Made by a program: the position numbers and the translations under genes. Positions 1,455 to 17,561 of a stretch of DNA of 64,000 nucleotides are shown here, in pieces. Position 1 is the first letter of the stretch, and each line of letters begins with the position of its first letter. The notes beneath the pieces are model-generated. The model ran no database searches and was not told the DNA's origin. It saw only the letters and a program-made list of their open reading frames with translations. Origin of the DNA: Thermofilum uzonense (lineage in GTDB: Archaea; Thermoproteota; Thermoprotei; Thermofilales; Thermofilaceae); assembly GCF_000993805.1 (NCBI RefSeq), contig NZ_CP009961.1, positions 1,388,453 through 1,452,452 on the forward strand, written 5' to 3'.

Positions 1455-1758
1455 CGCCGTTGTGGCTATGGCAGTGGCTGTGGGGGGCACCCTGCTACTA
1501 CTCGCGCTCTACGCGAGGCTTTACAGTGCATACGCCGGCGCTCTCGACTGCTACGCTGCGGCGCAGCGAGTAGCCAAGAACGCGTCGCTCTACGCCTCCA
1601 ACCCCCTCGCCTACACGCCACCGCGGGGGTTGAGGGTGACGTTCTACTACTCAAACGGGACCGTCGTGGCCAGGGGCTCGGCGTCGAGGTCCCGGTGCTA
1701 CGCCTACGCCCTCGCGAACGCGGGCGGGGTGGTCGTCCTTGTCAGGGTCGACGGGTAG
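1438..1758 (+). CDS. pilin-like single-TM protein
   Basis: 106 residues from the ATG at 1438, which lies inside the end of the previous gene. After a short Arg-containing N-terminus (MRVRVDAVV) there is one hydrophobic helix (about residues 8-30), then a small external domain with two Cys and N-glycosylation sequons (NAS, NGT). A short positive N-terminus, one hydrophobic helix and a compact glycosylated domain is the plan of archaeal type IV pilins and pseudopilins. The usual class III cleavage site (K/R-G) is not obvious. It overlaps the next gene by 20 bp. Called by architecture only. Confidence 0.55.
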   Translation: MRVRVDAVVAMAVAVGGTLLLLALYARLYSAYAGALDCYAAAQRVAKNASLYASNPLAYTPPRGLRVTFYYSNGTVVARGSASRSRCYAYALANAGGVVVLVRVDG

Positions 1759-2992
1759 CCGGCTCGCCCTCCTCCTCGCTGCCTTGACGGTGCTCGCCGT
1801 CCAAGCGCTAGCCGACCCTGTAATCACGGGCGTCGCGTGCACTGACGGCCGTGTAGCCGTGCTCTACAACGGCACCGTGCTCTCGCTCCCCACGCTACAG
1901 AGGCTATTCGACGCCGGCAACCTTCTCTCCTGCGACGTGAACGGCTACATCGCGGTCCAGAGGTACGGGAGGGTGGACGTCTACGACCCTAGCGGCAGGC
2001 TACTCGCGAGCGTGGAGGCGAGCGGTAAGCCCCTCGTCGGGCAGCGCTTCCTGCTCGTGGCCGGCGACGCTGTGATCCGGGCCTTCGCGCTTCCCTGGGG
2101 CTTCGAGGCCTTCAGGCTGGACGAGCTCTCCTCGCCCAAGTGCGTCAAGGTGCTCTCGGCTACGAGGGCTGCCTCCAAGGCGGTGACCGTCGCTAGCCCG
2201 TGCACGTGCCCAGTGAGGATGCGCGTCGAGAGCTACGTCCTCCTCTTCGACCTCGACACCGGGCTCTGGGACGTCTTCAGCACGGGGCTGGTCGCCGCGT
2301 GGGCTGTGCCCTCCGGCGCCCTCTGGGTGAAGAACGCCACGGTGTACTTTAACGGGAAGCCTGTGGCTACGGGGGGCCAAGCCCTTCCAGTGAACGGCTT
2401 CGACGGCTTCGCAGTCGTGGACAGGGAGGTCAAGGTCTACGATACGGCTGGCAGGCTGGCAGCGGCACTCCCCCTGCCGAGGGGCAAGGGGCTGGCCGTA
2501 AGCAGGGTTAACGAGGGCTTCCTCGCGTGCAGTGACTACGAGTGTTCTAGCCTCAACGCCTCCATTGATTTGGAGGGAATATACCAGCCTCCAGTGGTGC
2601 TTGACGGCGATACATACTATGTATTGCTGGCTGGGGGCCGGCTGAAGCTTGTTCTAAAACCCATGAATACCAGCGTTACCCCCCAGCATGGAAACTCGAC
2701 GCCACCCGTAAAGCCCCGTAACGACACAGCTCAACCCGACAAGACGACACGGCTGGAGCCCGAGGCCCAGCAGTCAACCGTTGAGCAGGCTACCGGGTAT
2801 AAGCCCGGCCTGGGAAACGCCTCTAGCGCGTTACAGGCGCCTCAAAACGCTACTCCGAGCCCCGTGGTCACGCCGGCTGTGGCCACGCCCCCGCAGGGCG
2901 CCAGCTGGCTTCTCGTGCTCTTACTGCTCGGCGTGGCTGCCGCAGCTTTTCTCTGGCTTCGCCGGAGGAGCGTCTACCGCTACGTCTTCTAG
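1739..2992 (+). CDS. secreted, C-terminally membrane-anchored glycoprotein
   Basis: 417 residues from a TTG start overlapping the previous gene. A signal peptide is clear (hydrophobic core about residues 8-24, ending near ALA-D). Residues about 28-310 are beta-rich with short repeated strands of the form 'G-R-V-x-V-Y' that resemble beta-propeller blades. Residues about 315-385 are a Thr/Pro/Gln-rich linker with several N-x-S/T sites, a typical glycosylated stalk. A C-terminal TM helix (about 388-408) is followed by Arg residues. It is likely displayed on the outer face of the membrane next to the pilus-like machinery. No enzymatic motif is visible. Confidence 0.6.
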   Translation: MSGSTGSRLALLLAALTVLAVQALADPVITGVACTDGRVAVLYNGTVLSLPTLQRLFDAGNLLSCDVNGYIAVQRYGRVDVYDPSGRLLASVEASGKPLVGQRFLLVAGDAVIRAFALPWGFEAFRLDELSSPKCVKVLSATRAASKAVTVASPCTCPVRMRVESYVLLFDLDTGLWDVFSTGLVAAWAVPSGALWVKNATVYFNGKPVATGGQALPVNGFDGFAVVDREVKVYDTAGRLAAALPLPRGKGLAVSRVNEGFLACSDYECSSLNASIDLEGIYQPPVVLDGDTYYVLLAGGRLKLVLKPMNTSVTPQHGNSTPPVKPRNDTAQPDKTTRLEPEAQQSTVEQATGYKPGLGNASSALQAPQNATPSPVVTPAVATPPQGASWLLVLLLLGVAAAAFLWLRRRSVYRYVF

Positions 2993-3019: not shown

Positions 3020-3039
3020 GTGTGTCGCGTTTTTTCTTG

Positions 3040-4428
3040 ATGGATAGAAAAATATTATTTATTACAGGCGTAGCGTCAGCCATCATTCTAGCACTCATAG
3101 CATTGCAACAGGCTGCCCGGCCCGGCGAGGCACCCCTCAACCCCTCAACACCCCCCACAACCCCTGTAAAGGTGAAGCTGTCCGTGACCGTGCTGGGGCA
3201 GGGTAGCCTTGCCATCAACGGCACGCCAGTCTCGAACAGCACCCTGCTCCTGGAGCCCGGCGTCGTCAGCCTGGAGGCCAGGCCTGCAAGCGGGTGGAGG
3301 CTCAAGCAGCTCCTCGTCAACGGCTCGCCCGGGGTCGCTGACTGGCTAAGGATCAGGGGCAACACGAGCATCGCTGCTGTCTTCGAGCGGGTAAAGGTGA
3401 GGGTGGTGCTGGTGGTGACTGGTGACGGGTTGCTCTACGTGAACGGTAGCTTAGCCGTGAACGGCACGGGCTCCAAGGAGCTGGAAGCCGAGCCGGGCGT
3501 GCTCCTGCTCGCTAGCCTAGAGCCCTGGAGCCCTTTCCTTCAGGCTAGGCTCTACGTGAACGGCACGCCCGTGGAGCGCTGCCCCTCCTGCCCTCCGGTC
3601 TACGCGGTGGAGGTGCGCGGCGACACTGAGCTCAAAGCAGTCTTCGAGCCCAGGAAGGTGGTGCTCCGCGTCGACGCTAAGGGCCTCGCCGCGAAGCTGG
3701 CCTCGAAGAGCTGGGAGCGCGGGGTCAACGGCTCGGAGGTCATCGGGGCTGTAGCCGGCGAGCCCGTGAACGTCACCTCTTACTGCCCCCCGAGCCCCGA
3801 GGCGAAGCCCTGCATCGTCGGCTGGGCCGTCAGGGTGCACGCGCCTACGGGCGTGCTCAACTCCACGGCCTCGGCTAATACAACCGTAGTCCCCGTCTAC
3901 GACACCGAGCTCGAGGCGATCGTGCAGAAAGTGGTCGGCGGCATACCCAGCCCCGTACCCGGCGGAGTCCTCTACGCTGGCAGGGAGATCCCGGCGGAGG
4001 CGGTGCCGAGGCACGTGTGGCTCGACGTGAGGCCGTGGACCGCCAGGGTGGAGTACCTCGGCAACGGCACCTGGCTCATCGACGAGCCAGTCGGCAATGA
4101 TCTCTACATCGCGGTGCCCCCCAACTGGTCCCTCGTGACCGTGGAGGCTTGGCTCGTGGACAGCTACGTTAAGCCCTACCTCGACGTCTACGTCGTCACC
4201 AGCAATAACCCCGTCCTCCGCTACAAGGGGGCGGGCACCTGCAGCTCCTTCCCCAGCTATGTGAGGATAACCCTCACCAGGGACGGCAGAGTCCTCGAGA
4301 AGCCCAAGTATTGGTGCCTGGGAGGGGGGTACAGCACTATCGGCCCCGACCCGCAGGCCAGGGAGGGCTACCTCCTCCTCACCGTGGCCAGCGCTAAGCT
4401 CAAAGTGCGGGTATCGCTCCAGCCCTAA
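3040..4428 (+). CDS. secreted glycoprotein with InlB-B-type repeats
   Basis: 462 residues. I prefer the ATG at 3040 over the upstream GTG (3022) because it sits at leaderless distance from the TATA element. An N-terminal hydrophobic helix (about residues 4-22) is a signal peptide or anchor. Residues about 45-215 contain three copies of a ~60-residue unit (V-x-V-x-G-x-G-x-L-x-V-N-G ... ending in A-V-F-E), the signature of divergent InlB B-repeats, small beta-sandwich modules used in surface proteins. The C-terminal half is beta-rich with further N-glycosylation sites and paired Cys. No catalytic motif is seen. It probably belongs to the cell-surface apparatus built around the pilus-like genes. 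Confidence 0.65.
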   Translation: MDRKILFITGVASAIILALIALQQAARPGEAPLNPSTPPTTPVKVKLSVTVLGQGSLAINGTPVSNSTLLLEPGVVSLEARPASGWRLKQLLVNGSPGVADWLRIRGNTSIAAVFERVKVRVVLVVTGDGLLYVNGSLAVNGTGSKELEAEPGVLLLASLEPWSPFLQARLYVNGTPVERCPSCPPVYAVEVRGDTELKAVFEPRKVVLRVDAKGLAAKLASKSWERGVNGSEVIGAVAGEPVNVTSYCPPSPEAKPCIVGWAVRVHAPTGVLNSTASANTTVVPVYDTELEAIVQKVVGGIPSPVPGGVLYAGREIPAEAVPRHVWLDVRPWTARVEYLGNGTWLIDEPVGNDLYIAVPPNWSLVTVEAWLVDSYVKPYLDVYVVTSNNPVLRYKGAGTCSSFPSYVRITLTRDGRVLEKPKYWCLGGGYSTIGPDPQAREGYLLLTVASAKLKVRVSLQP

Positions 4429-4451: not shown

Positions 4452-4474
4452 TGGCTGTTTCTCTCATTTACTCG

Positions 4475-7186
4475 ATGAGGCTAGCATTCGTAGGGCTATT
4501 CGTAGGGCTAGCGCTCCTAGCAGCCACTCTCTCAGCGGCGCTCGCCGCGGCGTCGCCCGACCTCGTCAGCGTCTCCTGTCCCAACGGCAGCAAGGGCTAC
4601 GTCGCCTACGACCTCAACCTGATATGGATCTCGTACGTGCCCCGAAACGAGATAAGGGAGAGGTACGGGAGCATCCGGCCCGGCGTCTACCTGCGGAACT
4701 TCACCTGGAACTCGACGCTGTGGTACGCGGTCTGGAGGCGCTATGCCACGTACCTGTCGTACCCGTCTGGGGCCTCGTGGGACGCGTGGTATCGCATGAA
4801 CTACACTGTCCAGTTCAGCTTCGACGTCAAGCTGGTCAACAGGACCGCGGGAGGATCGCTGAAGCCCACGTGGTACGTCAACCGGAGCGGCACGATGAAG
4901 GGCTACGTAGTGTATGGGGGCGGTATCGGAGGCACCCTCTTCGAGGACTACGTGGTGAAGGCTGGGGGGGCAGTGGCGAATGTGACCGTGTACAACTGGA
5001 CCGTGTGGCTGCAGGTCTACGGGGGGCAGAGCGGCCTCGACTACTTCGGTGTCTCTGCTTACACATACCTCGACGCAGCTTGCTTCGCGGAGGCCGGCGG
5101 CGGTGGCGGCGGAGGAGGGGGGCAGGGCGTCACCCTGACCACGAAGGTCGACGGGTGCGCGGAGATAGACCCCAAGCCTGGAACCTACACGTACTCGAAG
5201 GGCTCCACCGTCACGGTGAAGGGTAGGGCGCAGAGCGGGGCCGCGTGGCAGGGGATGCACGTGCTGTGGGAGGGGAGCACGCAGTGGGAGTGGCTGAGCT
5301 GCACCTGGCAGGACGGGTGGTGCGTCGCCACGCTGACGCTCGACAAGAGCGCCACCGTCGAGGCGAGCGCTTCGTGCCCGCCGAAAGGCGCGGAGGCCTG
5401 GCTAGTCCTGACGGCCCCCTTCTCCACCACGGTGAAGGCCACGATCACCGACCCTGAGGGCAACACGTTCACGACCCTGCTCCCCGTAGACCCGAGCGGC
5501 TGGGTCATCGGGTACTCCAGATCCCCCCCCGACCCGACTGAGACGTATCAGTGCTACAAGAAGACGTGGAGCGTGGTGCTGGAGCCGAGCGGCTTCGCCT
5601 CTGCGGTCTACACGGTGCAGAGGTACTGGTGGGACGGCTCCCTCGACGGCTACCCCGACCCTTCGCGGCTCACGGGCGGTAGGCTCACCGTGAACGTGGA
5701 GATGGGGAAGTGCATGGCGGGGAACCACGTGGTGTACAGCTACGCCGTCTTCAGGTTCAGCAACGGGACTACGACCACCTCGACGTGCAGCGACACGACC
5801 TGGTGGTCGGGGTGCCGCTACTACGCGCCGAAGGACCGCGTACACATCTCCCCCACGCCACAGACGCAAACCCGGCTCGTGGGCCTTGAGCGGCTTGGCA
5901 CGCTGTTCCTGCCGGGTGAGGCGATAGCGTCGCCTCTCTTCAACTCGAGCTGGGGCTGGGCTGGGGACTGGGCGATCCGCGCCGACCCCCTGCATTCTTG
6001 TGGCGAGTACGTCGTGGCGCACCTGTACGGCGTTGGTAGCGGGCGTGACTTCTACGTGTCCCTAGGCAGGGACGTGCGGCAGCTCAACGTCACGCTGCCC
6101 GTGAACTGGAGCAGGGGTGGGGCGAGGTACGTGAAGGGCAGCGTCATGGTGATCCCGAGGAATACTACGGAGCTTTCAATGTACTTCCCCAGGGTGGTGG
6201 GGGGCGTGCCGGGCCTCCCGCAGGACACCTACTACCTCATCGGGTTGGCGGCGTGGGACCCGTACAAGTCGCCCCTGGCAGCAGGGCTCGGCGTCGGCAG
6301 GGGTAGCTGGGACACGGGCTGCTGGCTAGGCAACGGGACTACGCTGGCGGTCTACAACCTCACGTACACCTACACCTTCAAGAACGGCACCATGGTGGTC
6401 TTCCTCCAGCCCGTAGTAGTATCCGCTTTGAAGGTCAAGGACGTCCAGGCCAGATACGTGGTCGGCAGCTTCGACGCGGAGAGGCAGCACAGGCCGATCC
6501 TCGCAACGCTCACCGCCGAGATCACCTGGGCGTACCTCCCGAGCCTGAGCGACTCGCAGAAGCTAGGCATCAAGCTCCACCCGCCCAGGCAGGAGCTCAC
6601 AGCTGCACTGGTGGTCGCCGGCAGGCCCCTGCTAGTCGCGGGCAATAGGAGCGAGAGCGGTAACAGCTTGTTCTTCACCTTCAGCTTCGACGCTGAACGG
6701 CTGGTCGAGGCGCTGGACTGGAGGCTCACGCCCGCGAGGCTCGAGGCGTGGTGGCTCGGCGCCTACGGGCAGCCCCTGGGTCCCGTGGAGCAGCAGCAAG
6801 CAATGGACCTCTACATCGTGCCGGCGATGGCCTACCCCCTCGAGTGGCGGGAAGGCGACGGCTTCACGCTCAGGGCACAGCTCCTCGCGTGGCTGAACAG
6901 GAGCACGCCCCTGGACATGCCCGTGGGCTACGTGAACGCGTGGGTCGAGTTCTACAACATCGTGGGCGGCCAGCCCCTCACCCAGTACAATGGAGTATTG
7001 TATGGGCCGTATGGCTCGAGCGGGACCGAGGTTAGCGTCAACGTGAACCTGCAGGGGAGCAAGGGACTCGCTGTGGGCATGTACGTGGTGCCGATGGACT
7101 ACTCCCTCGCGGGTAAGCGCTACGCCTGGGGCAACCTGCCCGCGCTGATAGCGCCCTTACCCGCGGTCTACCCGCCACGCTCATAA
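4475..7186 (+). CDS. large secreted surface glycoprotein
   Basis: 903 residues. A signal peptide is clear (hydrophobic core about residues 4-25, cleavage near AAA-S). Residues about 30-205 form a Tyr/Trp-rich beta domain with many N-x-S/T sequons, followed by an eight-glycine linker (about 208-215). Residues about 217-300 are one InlB-B-like repeat, and the rest is a long beta-rich ectodomain with dispersed sequons and Cys pairs. No C-terminal TM helix is visible, so it is released or held by other surface proteins. It stands between a TATA promoter and another promoter (7191), so it may be transcribed alone and abundantly. I do not recognise the C-terminal ~600 residues as a known family; an S-layer-like or adhesin role is inference. 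Confidence 0.65.
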   Translation: MRLAFVGLFVGLALLAATLSAALAAASPDLVSVSCPNGSKGYVAYDLNLIWISYVPRNEIRERYGSIRPGVYLRNFTWNSTLWYAVWRRYATYLSYPSGASWDAWYRMNYTVQFSFDVKLVNRTAGGSLKPTWYVNRSGTMKGYVVYGGGIGGTLFEDYVVKAGGAVANVTVYNWTVWLQVYGGQSGLDYFGVSAYTYLDAACFAEAGGGGGGGGGQGVTLTTKVDGCAEIDPKPGTYTYSKGSTVTVKGRAQSGAAWQGMHVLWEGSTQWEWLSCTWQDGWCVATLTLDKSATVEASASCPPKGAEAWLVLTAPFSTTVKATITDPEGNTFTTLLPVDPSGWVIGYSRSPPDPTETYQCYKKTWSVVLEPSGFASAVYTVQRYWWDGSLDGYPDPSRLTGGRLTVNVEMGKCMAGNHVVYSYAVFRFSNGTTTTSTCSDTTWWSGCRYYAPKDRVHISPTPQTQTRLVGLERLGTLFLPGEAIASPLFNSSWGWAGDWAIRADPLHSCGEYVVAHLYGVGSGRDFYVSLGRDVRQLNVTLPVNWSRGGARYVKGSVMVIPRNTTELSMYFPRVVGGVPGLPQDTYYLIGLAAWDPYKSPLAAGLGVGRGSWDTGCWLGNGTTLAVYNLTYTYTFKNGTMVVFLQPVVVSALKVKDVQARYVVGSFDAERQHRPILATLTAEITWAYLPSLSDSQKLGIKLHPPRQELTAALVVAGRPLLVAGNRSESGNSLFFTFSFDAERLVEALDWRLTPARLEAWWLGAYGQPLGPVEQQQAMDLYIVPAMAYPLEWREGDGFTLRAQLLAWLNRSTPLDMPVGYVNAWVEFYNIVGGQPLTQYNGVLYGPYGSSGTEVSVNVNLQGSKGLAVGMYVVPMDYSLAGKRYAWGNLPALIAPLPAVYPPRS

Positions 7187-7190
7187 GGGT

Positions 7191-7203
7191 GAAAAATAAA
7201 TAT
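7191..7203 (+). promoter_or_regulatory. TATA-box promoter inside the apparent 5' end of the next ORF
   Basis: AAAAATAAATATTTC immediately follows the stop of the 903-residue gene, 22-34 bp before an in-frame GTG at 7225. It argues that the codons between 7189 and 7225 are promoter, not coding. Confidence 0.5.
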
Positions 7204-7224
7204 TTCTTTACCCTTCTACCCATC

Positions 7225-7770
7225 GTGGATCTCAGGATAGTATTGCTTGTATTGGCGCTAGCAGTGGCTTCCACGCTTGCCCTGTACGCGTACCGCTCCT
7301 CCGTGCTGAGTAGCAAGCCCCTCCCCGGCTACGAGGCTGCCCTCGCTGTGAGGGACGCCCTAACGGCCGGCAGGCTCTCGGGCTTAGAGGTCCACGTCTC
7401 CCAGGTGCCGATGCTGTTGAACATCACCGTGGACGGTAGGGAGTACGTCGTCCAGGCAAGCAGGGTGCTGGTCTGCTTCAGGGCTAGGGGCGCGCCCGTC
7501 TACGAGGAGCCCTCGGCGAGGCCTTGGCGCTCCTGGGGCAACGGTACTCATGCTGGTGCAGTGAGCTGGATTGGGGTGCGTGACGACGGCTCCACTGTTC
7601 ATGTATACTTTTATTCCGCAAGCATTACAGGGAAGGCTTCAAGCCTATGCGTGTCCTCGCAGGGCAACGCCGTGCTCACACTCGCGTCTAAGCAGGGATG
7701 CGTATCGGGTTATTGCTGGAGCGGAGCAAGGAGCTTGATTGTGCTAAGGCGCGTCGTCGGCTCTTGTTGA
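7225..7770 (+). CDS. pilin-like single-TM protein
   Basis: 181 residues from the GTG at 7225, chosen because the preceding codons are the AT-rich BoxA. It begins MDLRIVLL, then one hydrophobic helix (about residues 4-22), then a mostly beta external domain with one early sequon (NIT) and four to five Cys in the C-terminal half. It resembles the minor pilins and pseudopilins that follow. No class III signal-peptide cleavage motif is obvious. Function is inferred from architecture and position. Confidence 0.55.
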   Translation: MDLRIVLLVLALAVASTLALYAYRSSVLSSKPLPGYEAALAVRDALTAGRLSGLEVHVSQVPMLLNITVDGREYVVQASRVLVCFRARGAPVYEEPSARPWRSWGNGTHAGAVSWIGVRDDGSTVHVYFYSASITGKASSLCVSSQGNAVLTLASKQGCVSGYCWSGARSLIVLRRVVGSC

Positions 7771-7811
7771 CGCGTGGAAATGTTTAATTATTCCCAGCGG
7801 TTTTAACGCTT

Positions 7812-8105
7812 GTGATTGACGAGGCTATAATAGTTTTAGCCGAGGCGGTATTTCTCGCAGGGCTACTTATCCTCGCGTCACGTTTATGGCTTTTCCACGG
7901 AGATCCCTACCCTATGCTCGTAGCAAAGGCGGTGAACGCTAGTGCCAGCGATGCGGAGACAATGATAGTTTTGCCTAAGCCTGTACACTGCGAGGCGTGG
8001 AAGGTGTGCTACGCGGGGCAGTGCTACCCTGCAAGCCTCTCAGGCTTCACCGGTTCATCCTGGAATTACATAATCGTGGATAGGGGGTACGGGGTGGGAG
8101 GGTGA
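7812..8105 (+). CDS. pilin-like single-TM protein
   Basis: 97 residues from a GTG start. A TTTAATTATT element about 25-30 bp upstream suggests its own leaderless promoter. N-terminal hydrophobic helix at about residues 6-27, then a small domain with one sequon (NAS) and three Cys in a tight C-x7-C-x4-C pattern. It overlaps the next gene by 4 bp. Second member of the ladder of short single-helix proteins. Confidence 0.55.
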   Translation: MIDEAIIVLAEAVFLAGLLILASRLWLFHGDPYPMLVAKAVNASASDAETMIVLPKPVHCEAWKVCYAGQCYPASLSGFTGSSWNYIIVDRGYGVGG

Positions 8106-8413
8106 GGCACCTCGAAGCCCTGGCCATCGCATCCGTGGTGGCGGTGACAGCCACACTGCTGTACAGGCTCTACGTGAGCCAGGTATACCCGGTGCACCAG
8201 GTCGGCGCGCAGAGGGCCTTAGCCTTCGCGCTGCTCAAGTGCCAGTCGCTCGAGTGCTTCCTCAACGCTACCAGGGAAACTGTCCCTGTTCAAGCCATCT
8301 ATGTTGACGGAGTGCTCGTGGCGGGCTCTCTCGGGGGGCCCTCCCAGTGCTACGCCGTAGTCGTGGTGAACGCTACACAATACCACGTGGTGAGGGTGTG
8401 TGCGAAGGCGTAG
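8102..8413 (+). CDS. pilin-like single-TM protein
   Basis: 103 residues, GTG start overlapping the previous stop. Hydrophobic helix at about residues 5-24, then a compact domain with two sequons (NAT twice) and four Cys. Its size and plan match its neighbours. The end overlaps the next gene by 14 bp, so translation is coupled. Confidence 0.55.
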   Translation: MRHLEALAIASVVAVTATLLYRLYVSQVYPVHQVGAQRALAFALLKCQSLECFLNATRETVPVQAIYVDGVLVAGSLGGPSQCYAVVVVNATQYHVVRVCAKA

Positions 8414-9023
8414 GGGCCAGCTCGCACTGCTGGGAGTCATAGTGTTAAGCGTGACGCTGCTAGCCTTGGCCAGCATGGTCCCGGTGGAGCCAATATACGC
8501 GTACGAGAGGGGGCATATGCAGTGCGCGCAGCTCGTCCACGTCGCTAGGGCCTGCCTAGCCTCGGGGAGGTGCACGAACGAGACGCTGCAGGAGCTTGTC
8601 TCGAGAGTATTAGCGGTGAACGCGACGGAGCCCATGCTGATGTACCCCGTGCTCCAGTATACGAGGTATGAGGTGTCGAGCTGGAGCGTGGCGAACAGGA
8701 CCGTGTTCACGATTAAGACGCTGAGGGCGTCCTCGGAGAGCGTAGAGGTCTATGTGCTCGCGGCGAGCTATCCGTATTCTGGAAAATACAGGAAGTTCTG
8801 GCTGGGCAAGGAGTGGACGCTGTACAACCTGACCCTGTGGTACATGCACAGCTATGCCTCTCCGTTCTTCAACGTCCCCCAGCTGTGCCCGCGCATCTAC
8901 GACCCCTCCGGCCTCGCGGACGTGAAGCCCCTGGAGCAATGCCTCTGGAGGGTCGGGGTGCCGGGCAACTACACCCTGAGGGACGAGTTCGGTATCCCCG
9001 TCAGGGTGGTGGTGCGTGGATAG
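8400..9023 (+). CDS. pilin-like single-TM protein with larger external domain
   Basis: 207 residues, GTG start. The N-terminus RRRRGQLALL is a cluster of Arg directly before a hydrophobic helix (about residues 8-28), the closest thing in this ladder to a type IV pilin leader. The external domain has Cys residues and several sequons (NET, NAT, NRT, NLT, NYT). Overlapped at both ends by neighbours. A larger or minor pilin is likely; unproven. Confidence 0.55.
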   Translation: MRRRRGQLALLGVIVLSVTLLALASMVPVEPIYAYERGHMQCAQLVHVARACLASGRCTNETLQELVSRVLAVNATEPMLMYPVLQYTRYEVSSWSVANRTVFTIKTLRASSESVEVYVLAASYPYSGKYRKFWLGKEWTLYNLTLWYMHSYASPFFNVPQLCPRIYDPSGLADVKPLEQCLWRVGVPGNYTLRDEFGIPVRVVVRG

Positions 9024-9345
9024 GCTTATCGCGGGCCTAGCCTTCATCATAGCGCTGGGCGCGGCGTTGGCTGTGTTCAGGCCCCCCAGCCCCGACCGCT
9101 GCAGCGACGCCCGGCGCCTAGCAAGGGACGTTCAAGCCGCGCTGCACGGCGCCGTGGTCGAGGGAGTGTACTACCTACCCCCAACAACTGTGAACGCTAC
9201 CGGTTTATACTGCTGGGAGTGCCTCGCCGCCGCAAGGGTAGCGACGGCGAACAGCACCACACTGCAGGGAAGGGTCCGTCTCCTGGTGTACTCCGACCGG
9301 TCTGGCAGTGAGGCAGTGGTAATTTTTAAATACTCTAAACAGTAA
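9016..9345 (+). CDS. pilin-like single-TM protein
   Basis: 109 residues from a GTG overlapping the previous stop. Hydrophobic helix at about residues 5-20, then a small domain with three Cys (one C-x2-C pair) and sequons (NAT, NST). Last of the five short single-TM proteins. A strong TATA element follows at its 3' end, so the next gene starts a new transcript. Confidence 0.55.
   Translation: MDRLIAGLAFIIALGAALAVFRPPSPDRCSDARRLARDVQAALHGAVVEGVYYLPPTTVNATGLYCWECLAAARVATANSTTLQGRVRLLVYSDRSGSEAVVIFKYSKQ
9323..9334 (+). promoter_or_regulatory. TATA-box promoter for the VirB2-like pilin
   Basis: TTTTTAAATACTC about 22-33 bp before the ATG at 9356. The pilin gene therefore has its own promoter, consistent with a highly expressed structural subunit. 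Confidence 0.5.
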
Positions 9346-9355
9346 TAATTATTCG

Positions 9356-9760
9356 ATGAAGAAAGCCAACTTTATTGTATTTGTTTTGATGATGAGCCTC
9401 ATAATAGCAAGGCACGCGTATGCTCAGCTCCCACAGCCGAACATACCACAGATTACGGATACGTTGAAGTTCATCGCAAGCTTCGCGTACTGGTTTGTGA
9501 TATTCACAGTGCTGATAATCATGGTTGTAAAGCTGGCCTACGGCAGGCTACAGGCGAGTACCGGTGTACCTGGAATTTCATCTAGGGGGTACACAGAGAC
9601 ATGGGAGGCTGTCTCAGGGCTGGTGTGGACGCTGATAATCCTCCTGGCAGCACCCTGGATTGCCTACATTGCGGCAAGTGCTTTAGGGCTTCCACAGGTC
9701 CCGCAGTTAATCGTGGACGTCATGACGTATATTTACACGCATAACCCCCTTAGCCCTTAA
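9356..9760 (+). CDS. VirB2/TrbC-like two-helix pilin (Ced/Ted-type)
   Basis: 134 residues. A cleavable signal peptide (about residues 1-24, ending AYAQ) precedes a short Pro-rich segment. Helix 1 is at about 39-61. A basic/Gly loop contains RGYTETWE, and helix 2 is at about 83-107. A signal peptide plus two hydrophobic helices joined by a short polar loop is the plan of VirB2/TrbC conjugative pilins. It is also that of the archaeal DNA-import pilins described as CedA1 (Sulfolobales/Aeropyrum) and TedC (Thermoproteales). The loop-helix 2 segment (RGY-x3-WE-x3-G) recurs near the N-terminus of the next protein. It is probably the main subunit of a conjugation-type pilus. The family assignment rests on architecture and remembered literature, not on a search. 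Confidence 0.6.
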   Translation: MKKANFIVFVLMMSLIIARHAYAQLPQPNIPQITDTLKFIASFAYWFVIFTVLIIMVVKLAYGRLQASTGVPGISSRGYTETWEAVSGLVWTLIILLAAPWIAYIAASALGLPQVPQLIVDVMTYIYTHNPLSP

Positions 9761-9785
9761 CATTTTTTTTCCACCGGTGTAAGTC

Positions 9786-10610
9786 TTGCTTGAGTGGCTG
9801 CTCAGCGGAGTAAACTGGTCATACATGGCACTGGCCTTCTCAGCCGTGCTTGTAGAGGCCCTCTGGGGGCTACACTTAACGCATAGCCCCGTGCCCTCCG
9901 TACGGGAGCGAGGCTACAGTTTGATATGGGAGAGCCTCGAGGGGTTCACCTTTGGAGCTCTACTGCTCCTATCCATCGCCGTATTCGAGGGCCCGATCCT
10001 GGGATGGGTGAAGGGCGTGGACGTGGCTACAGCGGAAAGGATGTGGGCGGAGGCCCAGCAGAGGCTGTCAGATTACTTGTTAAGCATAGCGTTGCTCGAG
10101 CGTGACTTATCACTGACCGTGGTTTTCAGCAGCCTCGCCGGTACAGTCGGGGCTAGCAGTATACTTGCCCGCTTCATGGCGCAATACCTGTTGTTCTTCT
10201 CGACGGCTATGCTCTTCCTGACGTATATAGTTAAAGGCTACGGCTCGCTCATGTTCAGCATAGGCATAGCCCTGGCGAGTGTTAGGCGCGTGAGGAGTAT
10301 AGGATCATACCTTGTCTTTAGTGTGATTGCTATAGTGGTGGCAAGCTGCTCTCTCGCACCCTTCGTCTACAACAGTCTTCAAAGCCTCAGGTTCAGTTAT
10401 AAGCCAGGAATAATAGACGTGCTGAGCGAGGCGTTCAAGCAGCTGTTCACAGACCGGCTACGAGACCTGATAGAGGATGGCAAGCTGTTAAGCTATATAG
10501 CTACCGTGGCAACCGTGGCGGTAGCGGTTATCACGGCGGTGGCGGCGGCGCTGTCGAGGGCTTCTGGGGGCCTGATGGACACGTTGATGTCGCGTGTAAG
10601 AGGCTTGTAA
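9786..10610 (+). CDS. polytopic membrane protein next to the VirB2-like pilin
   Basis: 274 residues with about six TM helices (about 15-30, 52-70, 108-125, 130-155, 175-200, 232-255) and a charged loop at 205-228. Residues about 38-58 (RGYSLIWESLEGF) echo the pilin's RGYTETWEAVSGL, so the first two helices may derive from a pilin-like module. The start is TTG with GGTG just upstream. In Ced/Ted loci a multi-TM channel protein (CedA) lies beside the pilin; this one, or the 1403-residue protein next to it, could fill that place. No enzymatic motif is present. Confidence 0.55.
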   Translation: MLEWLLSGVNWSYMALAFSAVLVEALWGLHLTHSPVPSVRERGYSLIWESLEGFTFGALLLLSIAVFEGPILGWVKGVDVATAERMWAEAQQRLSDYLLSIALLERDLSLTVVFSSLAGTVGASSILARFMAQYLLFFSTAMLFLTYIVKGYGSLMFSIGIALASVRRVRSIGSYLVFSVIAIVVASCSLAPFVYNSLQSLRFSYKPGIIDVLSEAFKQLFTDRLRDLIEDGKLLSYIATVATVAVAVITAVAAALSRASGGLMDTLMSRVRGL

Positions 10611-10625
10611 TTAATCTGAAATTAA

Positions 10626-10637
10626 TTATTTATTAAA
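10626..10637 (+). promoter_or_regulatory. TATA-box promoter for the 1403-residue protein
   Basis: ATTTATTAAAG about 22-33 bp before the GTG at 10659, in an AT-rich gap of 48 bp. Leaderless start inferred. Confidence 0.5.
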
Positions 10638-10658
10638 GCGTTCAACGTTTATTATAAT

Positions 10659-13600
10659 GTGGATCCAGGCCTAGCGCCTGTTATAGCGTACGTATTATTC
10701 CTACTCGAGACGCTTTACATATCATACAAGCTGTACGTGGGGGGCAGGAGGGACTACGAGGAGCGCTTCTGGTCAACCCTTGCAGCACTGGTCGTAGCCC
10801 TCCCGTTAATGTTTCTCGATGTCGCCCTGGTCGCAGGGCTTTTCGGCGTCCCAGGCAGCTACCTGGACTACAGCCTCACGCTTAGGTACGCGTACGCGGT
10901 TCAGCAGGCCGCTAACCAAACCCTGAGCGGGCTACCGAGGTGGTCAGCGTGGCTCGGCACGGGCATAGCCATAGTTGAAACGCTTGCATGGGGTGCGGCC
11001 CTAGTCAGCGGCGGGCTCAGCCTCCTGATAGGCTACGCATCGGCGGCGGGCCTCGGACTCGTCAAGGCGACGCTGGACGCGGCGACGATGAGTGCTCAGG
11101 CGATGTACGCGGTCTCACGCCTCTACGAGCTAGCCGGACTGCTGGCTCCTTACGCGAGGACGCTTGTCCCCGTCGGCCTAGCACTGGCAGTTTCCAGGAG
11201 GACGAGGCCCCTTGGAGCGGTGATTGTTGCCGTGGGCGTGTTCTTCGGCTACGCCATGCCCTTCGCTCTAAATGTTGTGGCGTGGAGGATCCAGGAGGTT
11301 CAGGCCCCCGGGGCGCCGCAAGGCGCGCTCGGAGCGGTGTGCCTCAACGTCGTCACGTGCGGCAGCGTGGGGAAGTGGGGTAACACGACGTGTGCTGGCT
11401 TTCCAGCACTTGTCGAGCTCGGGGACCTCACGCATAACAGGACAGTTGTTAGGCAGTCGGGGAGGTGCTTCGTGGATCTGGCGGGCAACTACACTGTTAG
11501 AGCCGTGTGGTTCGGCCCCCTACGTGTGAGCCCGAACGAGTCGTTGATAGCGCCTAGCGTATTCGAGGTGAAGCCCGCGGCTAGGGTGAAGCCCGGGCGC
11601 GAGGTCCCCGACGCACTCACCGGCAGGGTGCGGGACCTGAACTACACGGAGTTCAACAACGTCACGATAGTTGTGCACTGGGGGCCCGGCGGCAGGGACC
11701 GCGACGTCTTCACGATCACGTGGGTGCCGGGCCAGGGCGCGTCGTGGGTGGCTACGGACGGCTTCCACTTCCCGTGGGTCAATGTGGAGTGGAGCAGGGA
11801 GCCGTGGTTCAACGCGACGTACTTCTCGCGTGCAGACTACGTCGAGGCAAGCCTCTGGGGCGTGGGGAGGCAGAAGATGTATACGGGTAACGTCACGCTG
11901 CCGGGTAACAGGACGGTGACTGTGAACTGCACGGAGGTCGAGGCGTACGTGTACGGCACGCTCCTCGGCGACCCGCAAATAGTGGACAGGGGGTTAACCT
12001 ACATCGAGGTGAACGGGACCAGGCACTACCTGGTGCCCGAGGTAAAAGTCACCGTTAGGCGCTACCTGGGGGTCGACCCTGAGTCGTACCTATCCATGAT
12101 GCGCCGAACCATTGCCCCGTGGTTCAACCAGTCCGCACGCGTCCTCAACGCTACGCTCCGAGGCCACGTTTACCTGGAGCTGGTGAACAACACGGTGGCG
12201 AAGATGCACATCTGCCCCACGACCGGGCCCGGCTACTGGGCGAAGTGCACGACTTTCGAGAACCCCGCTTACAAGTGGGGGATACCGTACGACTTTATCC
12301 CTATTGAGTTCGCGGAGGCGAGGTACTGCGGCCACCTCGTGAGGCCCGCGAGGGTGAGGCATTGGCTAGCGCTGGACACGCATATAAGCGTCGGCGCGTC
12401 CACGGTGGCGGCCACGTTCTACGACTCGTCGCTGGAGTGGGTGGCGGAGCAAAAGCTGGAGCTCTACGAGAGGGCTAGGGGCTTCTTCATCAACGTGTAC
12501 GAGTTCATAGCCCTGCTAGGCATAACATTCGGCCTCGCGGTCGCAGGGGTTGACGCGTTGTCGGGTTTCCTCGAGGGGCCCTCGGTCACCTTCGCGTTCA
12601 TGCCGAGGGGGCTGCGTAGGAGCTACTGGAGCATCGTTGTGTCTAGGCTCCCGAGCATCGCGTCTGCACTGGCTGGGAAGGCGCTGCCGGTGCCGAGGGT
12701 CGCGTATGACGCTGCTTTAAGCGTCTACGTGGAGGCTTTGCCGCGACTGATACGGCAGCACGCGTCCACGTATCCCCTGCGGAGGCTCAAGGAGGCCTTG
12801 AGGGAGAAAGGCAGGGCCCTGCTTGCAGACGTGAGTGGCAGGCTTTCAGTAGTGGAGGAGGCCTTGAATAGGCATAAGCGGCTGTTGTCGGGCGTCAGTG
12901 CTGTAGACCGGGTGGTTAGCGCTGTTAGGGGGCTCGCGGAGGCCACCAGGCTAAGCGACGTCGCCAGGATAACCGTCACGTTTGCGAGGCTTGTATGGGA
13001 GGAACGTGACACGCATGCCGTGAATTCGTTTCTTAGAGCTGTGGCCGGGACGCTTAGAAGCGAGGCCCGCAGGATGGCTGGGGAGGTGCCCGTCCAGCTA
13101 CACCCCCGGGCTAGCGTGCTGGCGAGCATTGCGGGCAGGATAGAGTGGCTTGAGGCATTCCTAAACCCCCGGGAGCTCTACAAGCGTGCAGTGTTCATCA
13201 CGGGTATGGCGTTGTACAACACTCCACGCACCGTGGTAGGAAGGGACGCGCTCGCGGTGGCGCTTCTAGGCGTGAGGATCAGCCGTGCCATGAGCTTTAC
13301 AGGCGCGTTAGGCGTAGTGGACGTGGAGGCTAGGAGGGCTAGGGAGAGGCTTGTCGAGGCCTCTGCCAGGCTGATGTCTGGCGATGTCAAAGGGGCTGCC
13401 AGGGTTTTGGAGGATGTTGAGAGAGTTGTAAGCGGCAGGCTTCGAGTAATGGGTTTGAGCGAGGCCGAGGTTAACGCGTTAACGGCCGTGTGGAGGGCTG
13501 GCGAGGCGTTGCAGAGGGCTCTGGGCTCAGGGCTCGAGGAGGGGATGCTCAAGGAGTACGTTAGGGTGCTGGAGGAGGCCTTGAAGACGATAGTCAACCC

Positions 13601-14870
13601 GGAGGTCAAGTCGTACCTAAGGCAGGAGCTCGAGTTTCTCAGGGGGCTTGAGTGGGAGAGGTTTGTGGAGCTAAACGCTGGTCTATCGGAGCCGGAGCCG
13701 GGCTCTCTTCGAAGGGAGCTCGAGGCGTTGAGGCGTGTAGCCGAGGCTGCAGGGAGGAGTGAAGCCGCGAGGTTGTTCGAGGAGGCCGCGCGAAGGGCAG
13801 AGGTGGACGTTTGGGAGGCGCTCGCGATTGCCGGTAGGGCCCTCAACCTTATGGGGCTGCCGAGCAGCGTGGAGTCAAAGCTCGTCGAGGCGTTCAGCAC
13901 CCGGGACGCTGACAGTTTTAGAAGGCTTTTGGTGGAGGCCGCCGGGCTTTGCAGGCAACACGGGCTGGGCGAGCTCGCGGAGAGGCTTGAAAGGCTCGCA
14001 GCGGTCGAGGGGAGGGCTGCGGCGACGCCGGGCCCCTTGGAGCTCGGGGAGGCTGTCTGGGACCTGCGTGTAGTCCTTGACAGGCTTGCAAGGGGTGATT
14101 GGAGGGCTGTCAGGGACGCGGAGGACCTTCTACGAGTCCTTCAACGGGTCGGCGACGGGAGGCTCGCCAGGATACTCGAGGGCGGGCTGCTCGCCGCGGA
14201 GGGCGAGCACGTGGAGGGGAGCTGGGAGGCCGTAGGGGCGATATACGTCAGGGCGCGTCGCCAGCCGGAGCTCCAGCTCGGCGAGCTCGTGTTGAGGGGC
14301 GCGGTAGTCGAGGAGGCCGCGGCGAGCGCCATGGACGACGTAGTTAGGCTGGGGCTCGACGCCGCGGTGGAGCAGGCGAGGAGGAGGGTTTTGGAGGTAC
14401 GGGAGGATTTCGAGGTGGATTTCGCCGAGCTCGTGCTTCTCGTCTCTGCGGTGGAGGGCGAGGAGGGTGCTAGGCTGGAGGCTGAGAGTCTCCTGTGGAC
14501 GGTTGTCTCCAACCCTCCTAGCGTCGAGGCCGCCGGGAGGCTGGCTGCCTACGCGTCGAGGGTGGTCGAGAGGGAGTACAGGGAGGCGTTGGAGGCTTAC
14601 AGCCGGGCGTTGTCCCTCTCCGGGAGCCTCAACCTACACCCGGGGGAGTCCAGGGCCATGCAGGCTTTTCAGGCGGACCACGCGAGGAGGGCGTACCACG
14701 CCCTGACGGAGGCGGTCGAGGAGGTACATGCCAGCCGAACACGCATCGCCTCCCTAAGGATTTACGCGGACATCCTCCCAGAATACAGGAAGACACTCAA
14801 CGATATTGACGCGATGCTCAGAGAGCTGGAAGAACTCCGAAGCAGGATAGAAGGACTCCTAGAGGAATAG
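10659..14870 (+). CDS. giant multi-domain membrane protein, CedA/VirB6-like N-terminus
   Basis: 1403 residues in three parts. (1) Residues 1-210 contain about five hydrophobic segments, ending in a block P-V-G-L-A-L ... R ... G-A-V-I-V-A-V-G-V-F that resembles polytopic CedA/VirB6-type channels. (2) Residues about 211-605 are a beta-rich external domain with many N-x-S/T sites and several Cys. (3) A TM segment at about 607-635 is followed by ~750 residues of almost continuous charged helix (Glu/Arg/Ala/Leu), resembling a helical-repeat or coiled-coil tail in the cytoplasm. A polytopic core with a giant inserted or appended domain is known for 'extended VirB6' proteins. The stop overlaps the convergent protease gene by 12 bp. 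A decayed copy of its last ~45 residues lies at 30222-30372. Specific function unknown. Confidence 0.6.
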   Translation: MDPGLAPVIAYVLFLLETLYISYKLYVGGRRDYEERFWSTLAALVVALPLMFLDVALVAGLFGVPGSYLDYSLTLRYAYAVQQAANQTLSGLPRWSAWLGTGIAIVETLAWGAALVSGGLSLLIGYASAAGLGLVKATLDAATMSAQAMYAVSRLYELAGLLAPYARTLVPVGLALAVSRRTRPLGAVIVAVGVFFGYAMPFALNVVAWRIQEVQAPGAPQGALGAVCLNVVTCGSVGKWGNTTCAGFPALVELGDLTHNRTVVRQSGRCFVDLAGNYTVRAVWFGPLRVSPNESLIAPSVFEVKPAARVKPGREVPDALTGRVRDLNYTEFNNVTIVVHWGPGGRDRDVFTITWVPGQGASWVATDGFHFPWVNVEWSREPWFNATYFSRADYVEASLWGVGRQKMYTGNVTLPGNRTVTVNCTEVEAYVYGTLLGDPQIVDRGLTYIEVNGTRHYLVPEVKVTVRRYLGVDPESYLSMMRRTIAPWFNQSARVLNATLRGHVYLELVNNTVAKMHICPTTGPGYWAKCTTFENPAYKWGIPYDFIPIEFAEARYCGHLVRPARVRHWLALDTHISVGASTVAATFYDSSLEWVAEQKLELYERARGFFINVYEFIALLGITFGLAVAGVDALSGFLEGPSVTFAFMPRGLRRSYWSIVVSRLPSIASALAGKALPVPRVAYDAALSVYVEALPRLIRQHASTYPLRRLKEALREKGRALLADVSGRLSVVEEALNRHKRLLSGVSAVDRVVSAVRGLAEATRLSDVARITVTFARLVWEERDTHAVNSFLRAVAGTLRSEARRMAGEVPVQLHPRASVLASIAGRIEWLEAFLNPRELYKRAVFITGMALYNTPRTVVGRDALAVALLGVRISRAMSFTGALGVVDVEARRARERLVEASARLMSGDVKGAARVLEDVERVVSGRLRVMGLSEAEVNALTAVWRAGEALQRALGSGLEEGMLKEYVRVLEEALKTIVNPEVKSYLRQELEFLRGLEWERFVELNAGLSEPEPGSLRRELEALRRVAEAAGRSEAARLFEEAARRAEVDVWEALAIAGRALNLMGLPSSVESKLVEAFSTRDADSFRRLLVEAAGLCRQHGLGELAERLERLAAVEGRAAATPGPLELGEAVWDLRVVLDRLARGDWRAVRDAEDLLRVLQRVGDGRLARILEGGLLAAEGEHVEGSWEAVGAIYVRARRQPELQLGELVLRGAVVEEAAASAMDDVVRLGLDAAVEQARRRVLEVREDFEVDFAELVLLVSAVEGEEGARLEAESLLWTVVSNPPSVEAAGRLAAYASRVVEREYREALEAYSRALSLSGSLNLHPGESRAMQAFQADHARRAYHALTEAVEEVHASRTRIASLRIYADILPEYRKTLNDIDAMLRELEELRSRIEGLLEE

Positions 14871-16919
14871 GATCCTCCAGGCTATACGCGGTGGCTTTAC
14901 AGCGACACGCGTGCTCCAGGAAGGGTTGCCGTTAGCTATGAGAATAATATCGTTCAGCTGGTTCAGGGTGAAGTTTAGATCAGTGGACAGTTGAGGCTTG
15001 CTGCCGCATTGAAATTTGGAGACTCCGATGATGGAGGAGTTCACTCTAACGGTCACCTCGTATTCCACGGGATAAGCTGGACAAGACGAAGTGAATACCG
15101 TGGCGTTGACGCTCGCGAGTAACCATCTGGGCGCCACGATCTTCGGCGAGGCTGTCAGAGTTACAGTATAGCGGGGCAGGTCTACTGTCACAACTCCAAC
15201 ATAGTAAGTTGCGTACGGCACGGCAACACTGCCCGAGAAGCCGGAGATCTGAACCTGTGTCTGTAATGATAGAGGCTGTATAGTTACGCTGACAATCGTC
15301 TTGTCGCTTTCGGAGTTATACGAGGCAAGGGTCACGGCAAGCGAGGCGGGCTCCACAGGGAGGCTTGCCTCAACATTATTGGCAGGGTCTAGCTGGAGTA
15401 TAATTTTCCCAAGGGCTCTACTAATAGATCCAACAGTCTTGAATTCTATCCTTACCTCTGTGGCTCCAGGCTGCAGTGTAAGGCTCTGGGGGACGTTGGT
15501 GTACACGAGTATACTCTGGTTGTCAACCTTGGGCTCGACAACCTTCAAGAATGCTAAGACTTTGAACTTGTTGGGGTTAATCACCCTCGTGATTATGCTC
15601 CCATATGCACTGGAAGACAGGTAGAGGGGGGTCGGGGTTACGAGTTGGAGGGAGGGCTTTTCAACGCTAACGGTGATAGTGGTTTTCTCGCCAGAATACT
15701 CTATGCCGAGGGGGTAAACGCCCCAGCTCACGCCCTGTAGTGTGAGGTCCACGTAGCCCGAGGAGGCTGTGAGCATCGTCCCGTTAACTAGTACAGCACC
15801 GTCTACGGGCTTGCCTGCATAAGTTACGTAAAGTCTAAGCTGGAGGGTTCTATCTATGGGGTTAAAGACGCCATCCCTTATCTCTGCCGCAAGTGGTGGT
15901 GAGAATGTTATTGAGACTTGATAGTTCGCCTGGGAGAGACTAGGATTTACCAGGACCAAGATGAGGCTTCCGTTTGACACGTAGAAGGGCTGGTTTAATG
16001 CTAGATTGCTCCTTAGAGTCCCTGTCGTGGAGATAGTGACTAGGCCCGGTGAGGGCAAGCTGATCGTGAAGTATTTAGCACTCAAACCGTCGAGAGAGAA
16101 CTGCGTGCTCCAGCCAGAGGGGGCCAGCGTTACCTGCTGGTAGCTAGGTCGGTATGTCGTCCCGCATATTTGGACACCTTTAGCGAGTGCAATGAGAAAA
16201 CTCGTGTAGGCGGAGTTTATCCAGTCCGAGATGACCGAGCTGCCTGAAAACGATGCTGAGAAAGAGGTAGCGGCACCCGCATACCCCGACGAGATGACCC
16301 AGTTGTAGAAGGCTCCATAAGCGTAGCTCTGCGGGGCAGCGTTGCTGAAGGAGTAGGGGTTGGTGGTGTAGAGGTTGTACTGGAGGAAGTAGGAAGGCTC
16401 CCACCCGCAGATACCCGAGAGCGCCCCGGCAACCCCCTCAGCGCTGGCCTCTACGTACCATGGATAACTCTCCAGTACGTTCTTGTACTGTACATAGGCT
16501 AGCTGTGCTACGTGATTCATCTCGTGGTAAGCAGTGTGTGTTAGGACAGACTGGGATAGACCCGGAGCTATCTTTATATCCACTATACAGGTGCTCAGAA
16601 TCTTCCCAGTATTAGGGTCGTAAGAGTACTGCCATGTGGTAAGTCCAGCCTCACTACCGGAAAGGCTCTGAATGTAGACAGCGTACTTGTTACCGTTACA
16701 AGAGGACGAAAGCCCTACTCCCCGGTTGACAAGAGCTGATCGTGCAGCCTCAAATGCATTGGCAACGCTCTGTGCGTATGCTGATCCAGCGCCAGCATTG
16801 TCGTACACGTCAAAGTTCTGGGAAGAATAAGTAGGAGCAGAAAAGGATACGCGTGCCGCAAAGGCTAGGATAAGTATCAGGATTACCAGCAGGATTAGGC
16901 TTCTACCACTAAGTCCCAC
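14859..16919 (-). CDS. secreted HExxH zinc metalloprotease with beta-sandwich C-terminus
   Basis: 686 residues from a GTG start. Signal peptide at about residues 7-27. The catalytic part (about 30-270) holds HEMNH at about residue 133, an HExxH zinc site. About 25 residues later comes WYVEASAE, whose Glu is positioned as the third ligand of a gluzincin. From about 275 to the end are several beta-sandwich-like domains with many NxS/T sites, typical of extracellular substrate-binding or surface-attachment modules. It probably degrades or processes proteins outside the cell. It is convergent with, and overlaps by 12 bp, the end of the giant membrane protein gene; a BoxA-like AT-rich stretch lies about 30 bp upstream. 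The peptidase family cannot be fixed by eye. Confidence 0.65.
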   Translation of the reverse strand: MGLSGRSLILLVILILILAFAARVSFSAPTYSSQNFDVYDNAGAGSAYAQSVANAFEAARSALVNRGVGLSSSCNGNKYAVYIQSLSGSEAGLTTWQYSYDPNTGKILSTCIVDIKIAPGLSQSVLTHTAYHEMNHVAQLAYVQYKNVLESYPWYVEASAEGVAGALSGICGWEPSYFLQYNLYTTNPYSFSNAAPQSYAYGAFYNWVISSGYAGAATSFSASFSGSSVISDWINSAYTSFLIALAKGVQICGTTYRPSYQQVTLAPSGWSTQFSLDGLSAKYFTISLPSPGLVTISTTGTLRSNLALNQPFYVSNGSLILVLVNPSLSQANYQVSITFSPPLAAEIRDGVFNPIDRTLQLRLYVTYAGKPVDGAVLVNGTMLTASSGYVDLTLQGVSWGVYPLGIEYSGEKTTITVSVEKPSLQLVTPTPLYLSSSAYGSIITRVINPNKFKVLAFLKVVEPKVDNQSILVYTNVPQSLTLQPGATEVRIEFKTVGSISRALGKIILQLDPANNVEASLPVEPASLAVTLASYNSESDKTIVSVTIQPLSLQTQVQISGFSGSVAVPYATYYVGVVTVDLPRYTVTLTASPKIVAPRWLLASVNATVFTSSCPAYPVEYEVTVRVNSSIIGVSKFQCGSKPQLSTDLNFTLNQLNDIILIANGNPSWSTRVAVKPPRIAWRILFL

Positions 16920-17074
16920 ATCTTAAGTTTTCTCAAAGCGAGCTTTTATCTTTTCCACTAAAGCTTACACTTTGTTAAATGTCAGGGTCCAGCTTCTTAG
17001 GCCCCCTCCTGAATCTTAACGCCTCTGGTTGGGTTAATTTCTCCGAGCATTTCTCGATAATCTTACGGCGAGGG

Positions 17075-17505: not shown

Positions 17506-17561
17506 CTAAACCATCTCTAATATCATAAGGTGCAAAAAATAAGGATTAATACTCGAGAGCC

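Follow-up and report, generated by a model that had tools for sequence, protein, structure and literature searches.

In the Sulfolobales, type IV pili of the Ups system aggregate cells and the Ced system imports DNA, and both are needed for DNA exchange (PMC9905601, PMC11868833). A pairing of this kind is also known from a conjugative plasmid, the IncI plasmid R64, which encodes a type IV thin pilus needed for mating in liquid (PMC12102498). Chromosomal DNA exchange in hyperthermophilic archaea outside the Sulfolobales is an open question, and the Thermoproteales and Desulfurococcales studied in PMC9905601 are not genetically tractable. For the Thermofilales, VirB4 and CedD have been noted without a description of the locus (PMC11868833). 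The text of PMC9905601 contains no mention of Thermofilum, published work on Infirmifilum uzonense mentions no pili, and no DNA-transfer phenotype is reported for the Thermofilales in the literature examined.

We analyzed a window of 64,000 nucleotides from the genome of Infirmifilum (formerly Thermofilum) uzonense 1807-2 (1,611,988 bp, 47.9% GC). A preliminary description, made from the letters of the sequence, had proposed that positions 9356-14870 encode a relative of the Ced/Ted systems, or else a system that mixes type IV pilus components with conjugation-type ones. The hybrid reading is supported by our analysis, in which this region constitutes the membrane and pilus core of a Ted-type module inside a type IV pilus cluster. 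No description of such a combined locus was found in the literature outside subscription papers.

Three membrane protein genes adjoin a run of pilus genes

Three consecutive open reading frames on the plus strand at 9356-14870 code for proteins of 134, 274 and 1403 aa and start with ATG, TTG and GTG, respectively (Table 1). Hydropathy profiles agreed with the membrane architectures described earlier. The 134-aa protein has a signal peptide that ends in A-Y-A and is followed by two hydrophobic helices, the 274-aa protein is polytopic, and the 1403-aa protein has a set of N-terminal transmembrane (TM) helices and another one near residue 616. The three reading frames do not represent chance openings, because homologues of all three are found in the same order in several other genomes, the third-position GC is raised in each of them, and shuffling the 1403-aa stretch 100 times gave no open reading frame longer than 348 aa. 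AT-rich, TATA-like boxes were located about 30 bp before the first (TTTTTAAATA) and the third start (TTATTTATTAAA), such that each of the outer genes has its own box, as previously noticed, and none was seen ahead of the gene for the 274-aa protein. No model in Pfam or NCBIfam matched the three proteins above the cut-off, and a scan of positions 1-18000 of the window against Rfam gave no match.

Small signal-anchor or pilin-like genes, also noted in the preliminary description, are located upstream of 9356, together with genes for large sequon-rich proteins (Table 1). The same description had taken a TadC-like platform protein as the start of the cluster, but the cluster extends for about 17 kb upstream of the window. 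The TadC label itself should be used with caution, as the relationship to T2SSF/TadC is no more than suggestive: a comparison with the T2SSF profile gave a score of 27.2 versus 20.3 for the reversed control, limited to the C-terminal helix, and there was no Pfam T2SSF match in this protein. The orthologues are 58-78% identical in genomes of the same family and 26-36% identical in other families, and most of them adjoin a T2SSE ATPase gene.

Table 1. Coordinates of the pilus and Ted-type features in the window.
Feature	Position	Strand	Remarks
TadC-like membrane protein, putative type IV pilus platform	3..1127	+	Last 374 of 405 aa; start codon lies 91 bp outside the window
113-aa signal-anchor protein (minor pilin-like)	1417..1758	+	13 family members in the loci examined, mostly beside the TadC-like gene
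417-aa surface protein with 8 sequons, a signal peptide and a TM anchor at the C-terminus	1739..2992	+	Homologue in genus-mate contig L146
468-aa secreted/anchored protein, type IV pilus module, 13 sequons	3022..4428	+	Family in 14 ORFs of the loci examined, same order
903-aa secreted protein, type IV pilus module, 18 sequons	4475..7186	+	Family in 10 ORFs of the loci examined, same order
193-aa signal-anchor protein (minor pilin-like)	7189..7770	+	Same-order orthologues in G009, G016 and others
97-aa signal-anchor protein	7812..8105	+	Same-order orthologues
103-aa signal-anchor protein (minor pilin-like)	8102..8413	+	Same-order orthologues
207-aa signal-anchor protein (minor pilin-like)	8400..9023	+	Same-order orthologues
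109-aa signal-anchor protein that ends the type IV pilus run and adjoins the Ted module	9016..9345	+	Same-order orthologues, then tedC in L045, L048, L050, L052
TedC/VirB2-type pilin candidate, 134 aa	9356..9760	+	Predicted cleavage AYA|Q; precedes tedA in relatives
TedA (VirB6/CedA-type channel protein), 274 aa	9786..10610	+	Full-length profile match to Thermoproteaceae TedA
Giant TedA/VirB6 paralogue, 1403 aa	10659..14870	+	N-terminal TM domain, predicted sequon-rich outer domain (about 210-610), TM 616, predicted inner C-terminal tail
Repeated 3' end of the 1403-aa gene	14432..14872	+	About 24 dispersed genome copies, 70-93% DNA identity

The 274-aa protein is TedA and the 134-aa protein a candidate TedC

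Significant similarity to TedA, in line with the Ced/Ted relationship proposed in the preliminary description, was evident for the 274-aa protein, the gene of which follows the pilin gene. The profile of this Thermofilaceae family matched TedA from Pyrobaculum and Thermoproteus (93%, E=3.5e-7, score 54.8), well above the reversed controls, none of which scored higher than 25.0 in 110 comparisons. A profile built from four sequences also matched the Thermoproteaceae TedA (86.6%, E=4.5e-6), and the match to the compact-locus TedA (see below) was stronger (97.9%, E=6e-13). In a Foldseek search with an AlphaFold model of the protein (pLDDT 70), VirB6 of R388 was placed at PDB ranks 1, 2, 3, 5 and 10 with E-values of 0.15-0.29, none significant on its own; with E about 0.2, we count the fold match as suggestive only. 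Thus, based on the profile comparisons we identify the 274-aa protein as TedA.

The 134-aa family matched the N-terminus of the 274-aa family with a score of 26.1, which resembles the relation between CedA1 and CedA reported in PMC9905601, but the direct comparison with TedC reached 19.1 and was below significance (95% level of the null, 19.4). A weak match to TrbC/VirB2 (E=0.26) fell under the cut-off in the Pfam/NCBIfam search. A predicted A-x-A type cleavage site is present in six out of six homologues, and processing at the predicted site would give a mature 134-aa product of 111 residues. The AlphaFold2 model, obtained from an input of four sequences, is a poor one that places helices at residues 3-24, 30-67, 72-109 and 115-128 with low confidence; Foldseek returned no informative fold match for it, and nothing was found in PDB sequence searches with single-sequence and six-sequence queries. 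Taken together, the position of the gene, the A-x-A site, the two-helix plan and the kinship with the N-terminus of TedA make the 134-aa protein a candidate TedC-type pilin.

A giant paralogue of TedA follows the tedA gene

We assign the 1403-aa protein as a second, giant VirB6-like protein rather than as CedA itself. Its N-terminus matched the giant gene located beside tedA in the Thermoproteaceae Pyrobaculum and Thermoproteus (profile 95.3%, E=2e-8), and it is considered a paralogue of TedA because TedA and the giant proteins match each other, with mutual profile scores of 33-42. All 15 N-glycosylation sequons of the protein are located within residues 86-510 and none within residues 640-1403, a distribution in keeping with a predicted outer domain some 400 residues long and a tail on the cytoplasmic side. 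Counterparts of the giant gene adjoin tedA in nearly every Ted locus inspected, and a large TM gene is found directly after tedA in most other Thermoproteaceae tedA loci. In the relative genome G031, which we take to be P. calidifontis, one open reading frame of 5058 codons (L064 2415-17591) with N-terminal TM helices lies directly after tedA, and its N-terminus is homologous to the 1403-aa protein. The giant gene beside tedA is absent from the text of PMC9905601, and the literature on Ced/Ted systems that we examined contains no description of a giant TedA paralogue.

Copies of the last part of the 1403-aa gene occur at other places in the genome. They share the 3' end and have variable 5' ends (e.g. 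G000:C1:1504176, 1258987, 986900, 1576830). Many of them sit in a unit of about 550 bp, the opposite strand of which reads like the C-terminus of TnpB (IS200/IS605), and it therefore seems that a non-autonomous element has spread this 3' fragment. No match to the repeat was obtained in the six genus-mates and ten other relatives searched. We set aside the idea that the copies serve as cassettes for variation of the 1403-aa protein, since the tail probably lies in the cytoplasm and the antisense TnpB-like C-terminus is attached to many of the copies. A 686-aa secreted protein with a HEMNH (HExxH-type) motif is encoded convergently with the giant gene (14859-16919, minus strand), at the place where relatives carry tedB.

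ATPase and DNA-handling genes are located upstream of the window

An ATPase of the HerA/VirB4 type and one of the TadA type, both sought upstream on the proposal of the preliminary description, were recovered within 17 kb of the window, in stretch L007. The first is TedB, encoded 17 kb upstream, a TM protein of 713 aa that contains an ATPase domain of the HerA/VirB4 type and the profile of which has VirB4 (4ag5) as its best relative in the PDB (E=4e-8). Orthologues of this protein that are 41-50% identical are present in six genomes of the same family, in records that include Thermofilaceae archaeon SKYB99, an uncultured Thermofilaceae archaeon and Thermofilum sp. KUA_Bin21. The second is a T2SSE/TadA ATPase of 433 aa with an above-cut-off match to PF00437 (E=2e-15). 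Two pilin-like genes are also located upstream, for which a search for class III signal peptides gave Pilin_N at E=0.003, below the curated cut-off.

The upstream stretch also encodes MinD/ParA (239 aa), a RadA paralogue (321 aa), two HerA-like P-loop ATPases (311 and 602 aa), a DinG-like helicase and a ParB-like protein, such that MinD/ParA, HerA-like and recombinase genes, as expected for a Ted locus, are all in place. Of the four Rad51-family genes in the genome, the one at 920 kb matches more strongly and probably encodes the canonical RadA. Directly after the RadA paralogue, a 177-aa protein (L007 11591-12124) is weakly similar to Cas4 (E=1e-3); a run of SWIM, Cas4-like, zinc-finger and radA genes is also found beside the type IV module in genome G018 (L156). 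PADLOC identified no full defence system among the scanned proteins, only mad8-like and HerA-like ATPase domains and the Cas4-like nuclease.

A similar set of genes surrounds the Ted genes in P. calidifontis (G031, L063-L064), where minD, a gene for an ATPase the size of TedB, a radA-family gene, a SWIM gene and a counterpart of the 602-aa ATPase gene accompany the genes for a 153-aa pilin and a seven-TM TedA. The pilin carries AVA|QA at residues 20-24, exactly as published for TedC. Thus, minD, tedB, radA, the 602-aa ATPase homologue and the SWIM gene around tedC, tedA and the giant gene are common to P. calidifontis and the I. uzonense locus.

These results bear on two alternative explanations. 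One is that the region is an ordinary archaeal type IV pilus cluster with three membrane proteins unrelated to conjugation, as might be suspected from the TadA ATPase, the pilins, the minor pilin-like genes and the non-significant match between the pilin and TedC. The profile matches of TedA, the giant paralogue and TedB and the gene set shared with Pyrobaculum strongly disfavor this explanation, which we consider hardly credible. The other is that a type IV secretion-like machine delivers proteins or effectors, or serves for attachment, rather than moving DNA. Several type IV secretion systems do move proteins, and large sequon-rich surface proteins dominate the cluster. However, RadA, the Cas4-like nuclease, the DinG-like helicase and the SWIM protein co-occur with the Ted genes, of which radA and the SWIM gene do so also in the P. 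calidifontis Ted locus, and no effector-like cargo gene was recognized, leaving protein delivery highly improbable.

The linkage of type IV and Ted genes recurs in relatives

In five relatives (G009, G012, G014, G015 and G016), a signal-peptide pilin-like gene of 127-148 aa precedes a homologue of the giant gene (about 1240-1290 aa), with the orthologue of the 713-aa TedB directly 3' of the latter. The homologue of the 274-aa gene lies between the pilin-like and giant genes and was called in G009, G015 and G016. The small signal-anchor genes are located upstream of the Ted genes in these relatives, in the order seen in the window, where the contig reaches that far. In several of the five, the wider set of type IV genes, for the TadA ATPase, MinD, the pilins, the TadC-like protein and the minor pilin-like proteins, likewise adjoins the Ted genes with its order kept. 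A single contig of G016 contains the pilin, the TadC-like protein (67% identical) and the homologues of the 468-aa and 903-aa proteins in order. According to a profile annotation of further loci, type IV and Ted genes are also linked in G010 and in G024, the latter from another family. The adjacency thus recurs in at least six other Thermofilaceae genomes and in one of another family, in line with the proposed hybrid, for which the TedA match and the VirB4-type and TadA ATPases also argue. The type IV module also occurs without adjacent Ted genes in the genus-mate G003 and several other genomes, including other families; since several of these are metagenome-assembled genomes in fragments, genes missing near contig ends may not be truly absent.

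The locus is part of a high-GC island and has a compact counterpart

The locus belongs to an island of 35 kb (1369-1404 kb) with a GC content of about 60%, mostly 53-66% as compared to about 45-52% on both sides; one gene at 1360 kb is a high-GC exception outside the island. In a tree of the TadC-like protein, the I. uzonense sequence groups within a clade formed by another genus and supported at 99/98, as does that of its genus-mate G003, and the island pilin was found in none of six genus-mates. Based on the GC contrast, the placement of the TadC-like protein and the missing pilin, the island was probably acquired horizontally. Short high-GC fragments that are 82-95% identical are scattered in the genome (G000:C1 1331-1332, 1346-1347, 1354-1355, 1359-1360, 1370-1377 and 1391 kb) and include pieces of the 468-aa gene; the genome paper of the species lists 192 pseudogenes.

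Instead of a domesticated chromosomal system, the island might be an integrated conjugative element whose machinery serves to export the element itself, a reading to which its GC content in a 47.9% GC genome, the MinD/ParA and ParB genes and the position of the TadC-like protein in the tree lend some weight. We consider it very unlikely. Of those island genes that were scanned with Pfam, none was recognized as an integrase or relaxase gene, no tRNA was found at the island edges in the stretches scanned, and searches revealed no relatives of TedB in viral contigs and none of TedB or the 1403-aa protein in plasmids. Moreover, the loci in relatives have a GC content typical of their surroundings and adjoin the same chromosomal genes.

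A second, compact Ted locus is present in the same genome (L164 6656-16221; G000:C1 about 1190.7-1200.2 kb). It shares a TedC candidate, TedA, the giant paralogue (here 818 aa), TedB, MinD, the TadA-type ATPase and the DinG-like helicase with the island, and differs in having no TadC-like gene, pilins or minor pilin genes alongside, as is the case also for L055, L056 and L166 of Infirmifilum. Its TedB is split into a TM part and an ATPase part, a split that is kept in most compact loci. Counterparts were found in G001, G004 and G006; the one in G002 is partial, at a contig end, and that of G003 lacks the TadA-type ATPase. The DinG-like genes of the two loci (L007 4605-6005 and L164 14821-16221) are 99.2% identical over 1423 bp within different surroundings, and the island copy lacks a TadA gene between the DinG-like gene and its coiled-coil neighbor. 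The island and the compact locus have therefore exchanged DNA recently.

The TadA-type ATPase of the compact locus might act like VirB11. A single composite machine can also be envisaged, in which the TadA-type ATPase/MinD pair would work for the type IV pilus and, in a VirB11-like role, for the Ted channel as well. The giant TedA paralogue would in this case be an unrecognized third core part of Ted systems forming a large extracytoplasmic vestibule, and the contact and DNA-transfer pili would make up one integrated apparatus; we regard this idea as rather doubtful. It is also conceivable that the island encodes two independent neighboring machines, a type IV pilus for adhesion and a Ted system for DNA import, with no cooperation between them. 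The compact locus and the type IV modules without adjacent Ted genes in G003 and other families are consistent with such independence, and because of the latter the cooperation of the two pili is not proven. Yet, the adjacency recurs across the genomes listed above, and the Sulfolobales need both the Ups type IV pilus and Ced for DNA exchange (PMC9905601), which makes independence unlikely in our view.

Proposed function of the locus

Having identified TedA, TedB, the giant paralogue and the TadA ATPase from sequence comparisons, along with the conserved gene order and the paralogy, we consider it likely that the locus encodes a Ted-type DNA-transfer machine, i.e. a domesticated type IV secretion-like system, that lies within a type IV-type pilus module and has been conserved together with it, the two presumably forming one DNA-exchange apparatus. 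The type IV module comprises MinD, a coiled coil, the TadA-type ATPase, pilins, the TadC-like putative platform, and minor pilin-like and large glycosylatable surface proteins. By analogy with Ups in the Sulfolobales, the pilus and the large surface proteins may bring related cells together. The TedC candidate would assemble into a second pilus which, with a pore of TedA and giant TedA, would carry DNA across the envelope, presumably inwards, driven by TedB. The RadA paralogue, the Cas4-like nuclease, the DinG-like helicase and the HerA/VirB4-like ATPases may prepare or recombine the DNA. We infer this division of labor between contact pilus and transport, since Ups with Ced (PMC9905601, PMC11868833) and R64 (PMC12102498) show such a pairing.

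If so, predicted contact-type and DNA-moving pili, which are encoded far apart in other archaea, share one conserved locus in I. uzonense, and a locus that joins an aggregation-type pilus with a DNA-transfer machine directly predicts their cooperation. The giant VirB6-like protein beside tedA points to a missing pore component. Finally, the results extend Ted to the Thermofilales, in which filaments can be studied in a type strain that grows in culture (I. uzonense, DSM 28062).

Comparison with known systems

By description, the locus resembles plasmid R64 in having a type IV pilus alongside conjugative type IV secretion (PMC12102498), whereas R64 is a bacterial plasmid that exports itself and uses other components. 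The likeness to Ced and Ups is likewise one of description: a type IV pilus for aggregation would be paired with a DNA importer of the VirB2/VirB6/VirB4 type, and with CedE the Ced system has a second CedA paralogue comparable to the giant TedA. However, Ced and Ups are separate operons, CedA1 is unprocessed, and CedB/CedD take the place of VirB4 (PMC9905601, PMC11868833). The predicted cleavable signal peptide in all six pilin homologues and the position of VirB4 as the best PDB relative of the ATPase speak against Ced. Thus, within the Ced/Ted relationship proposed at the outset, the locus is probably of the Ted rather than the Ced type, as judged from the predicted cleaved signal peptide and the TedA and TedB matches.

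The closest system is Ted of the Thermoproteales (P. calidifontis Pcal_0765/0766, PMC9905601), with which I. uzonense shares an A-x-A pilin, TedA, a giant TedA paralogue after tedA, a VirB4-type TedB, and MinD/ParA, RadA-family and HerA-like genes nearby. In contrast to that system, the I. uzonense TedC candidate is too diverged for a significant direct match, TedB is located upstream after a rearrangement, and a co-conserved type IV pilus module is interleaved with the Ted genes.
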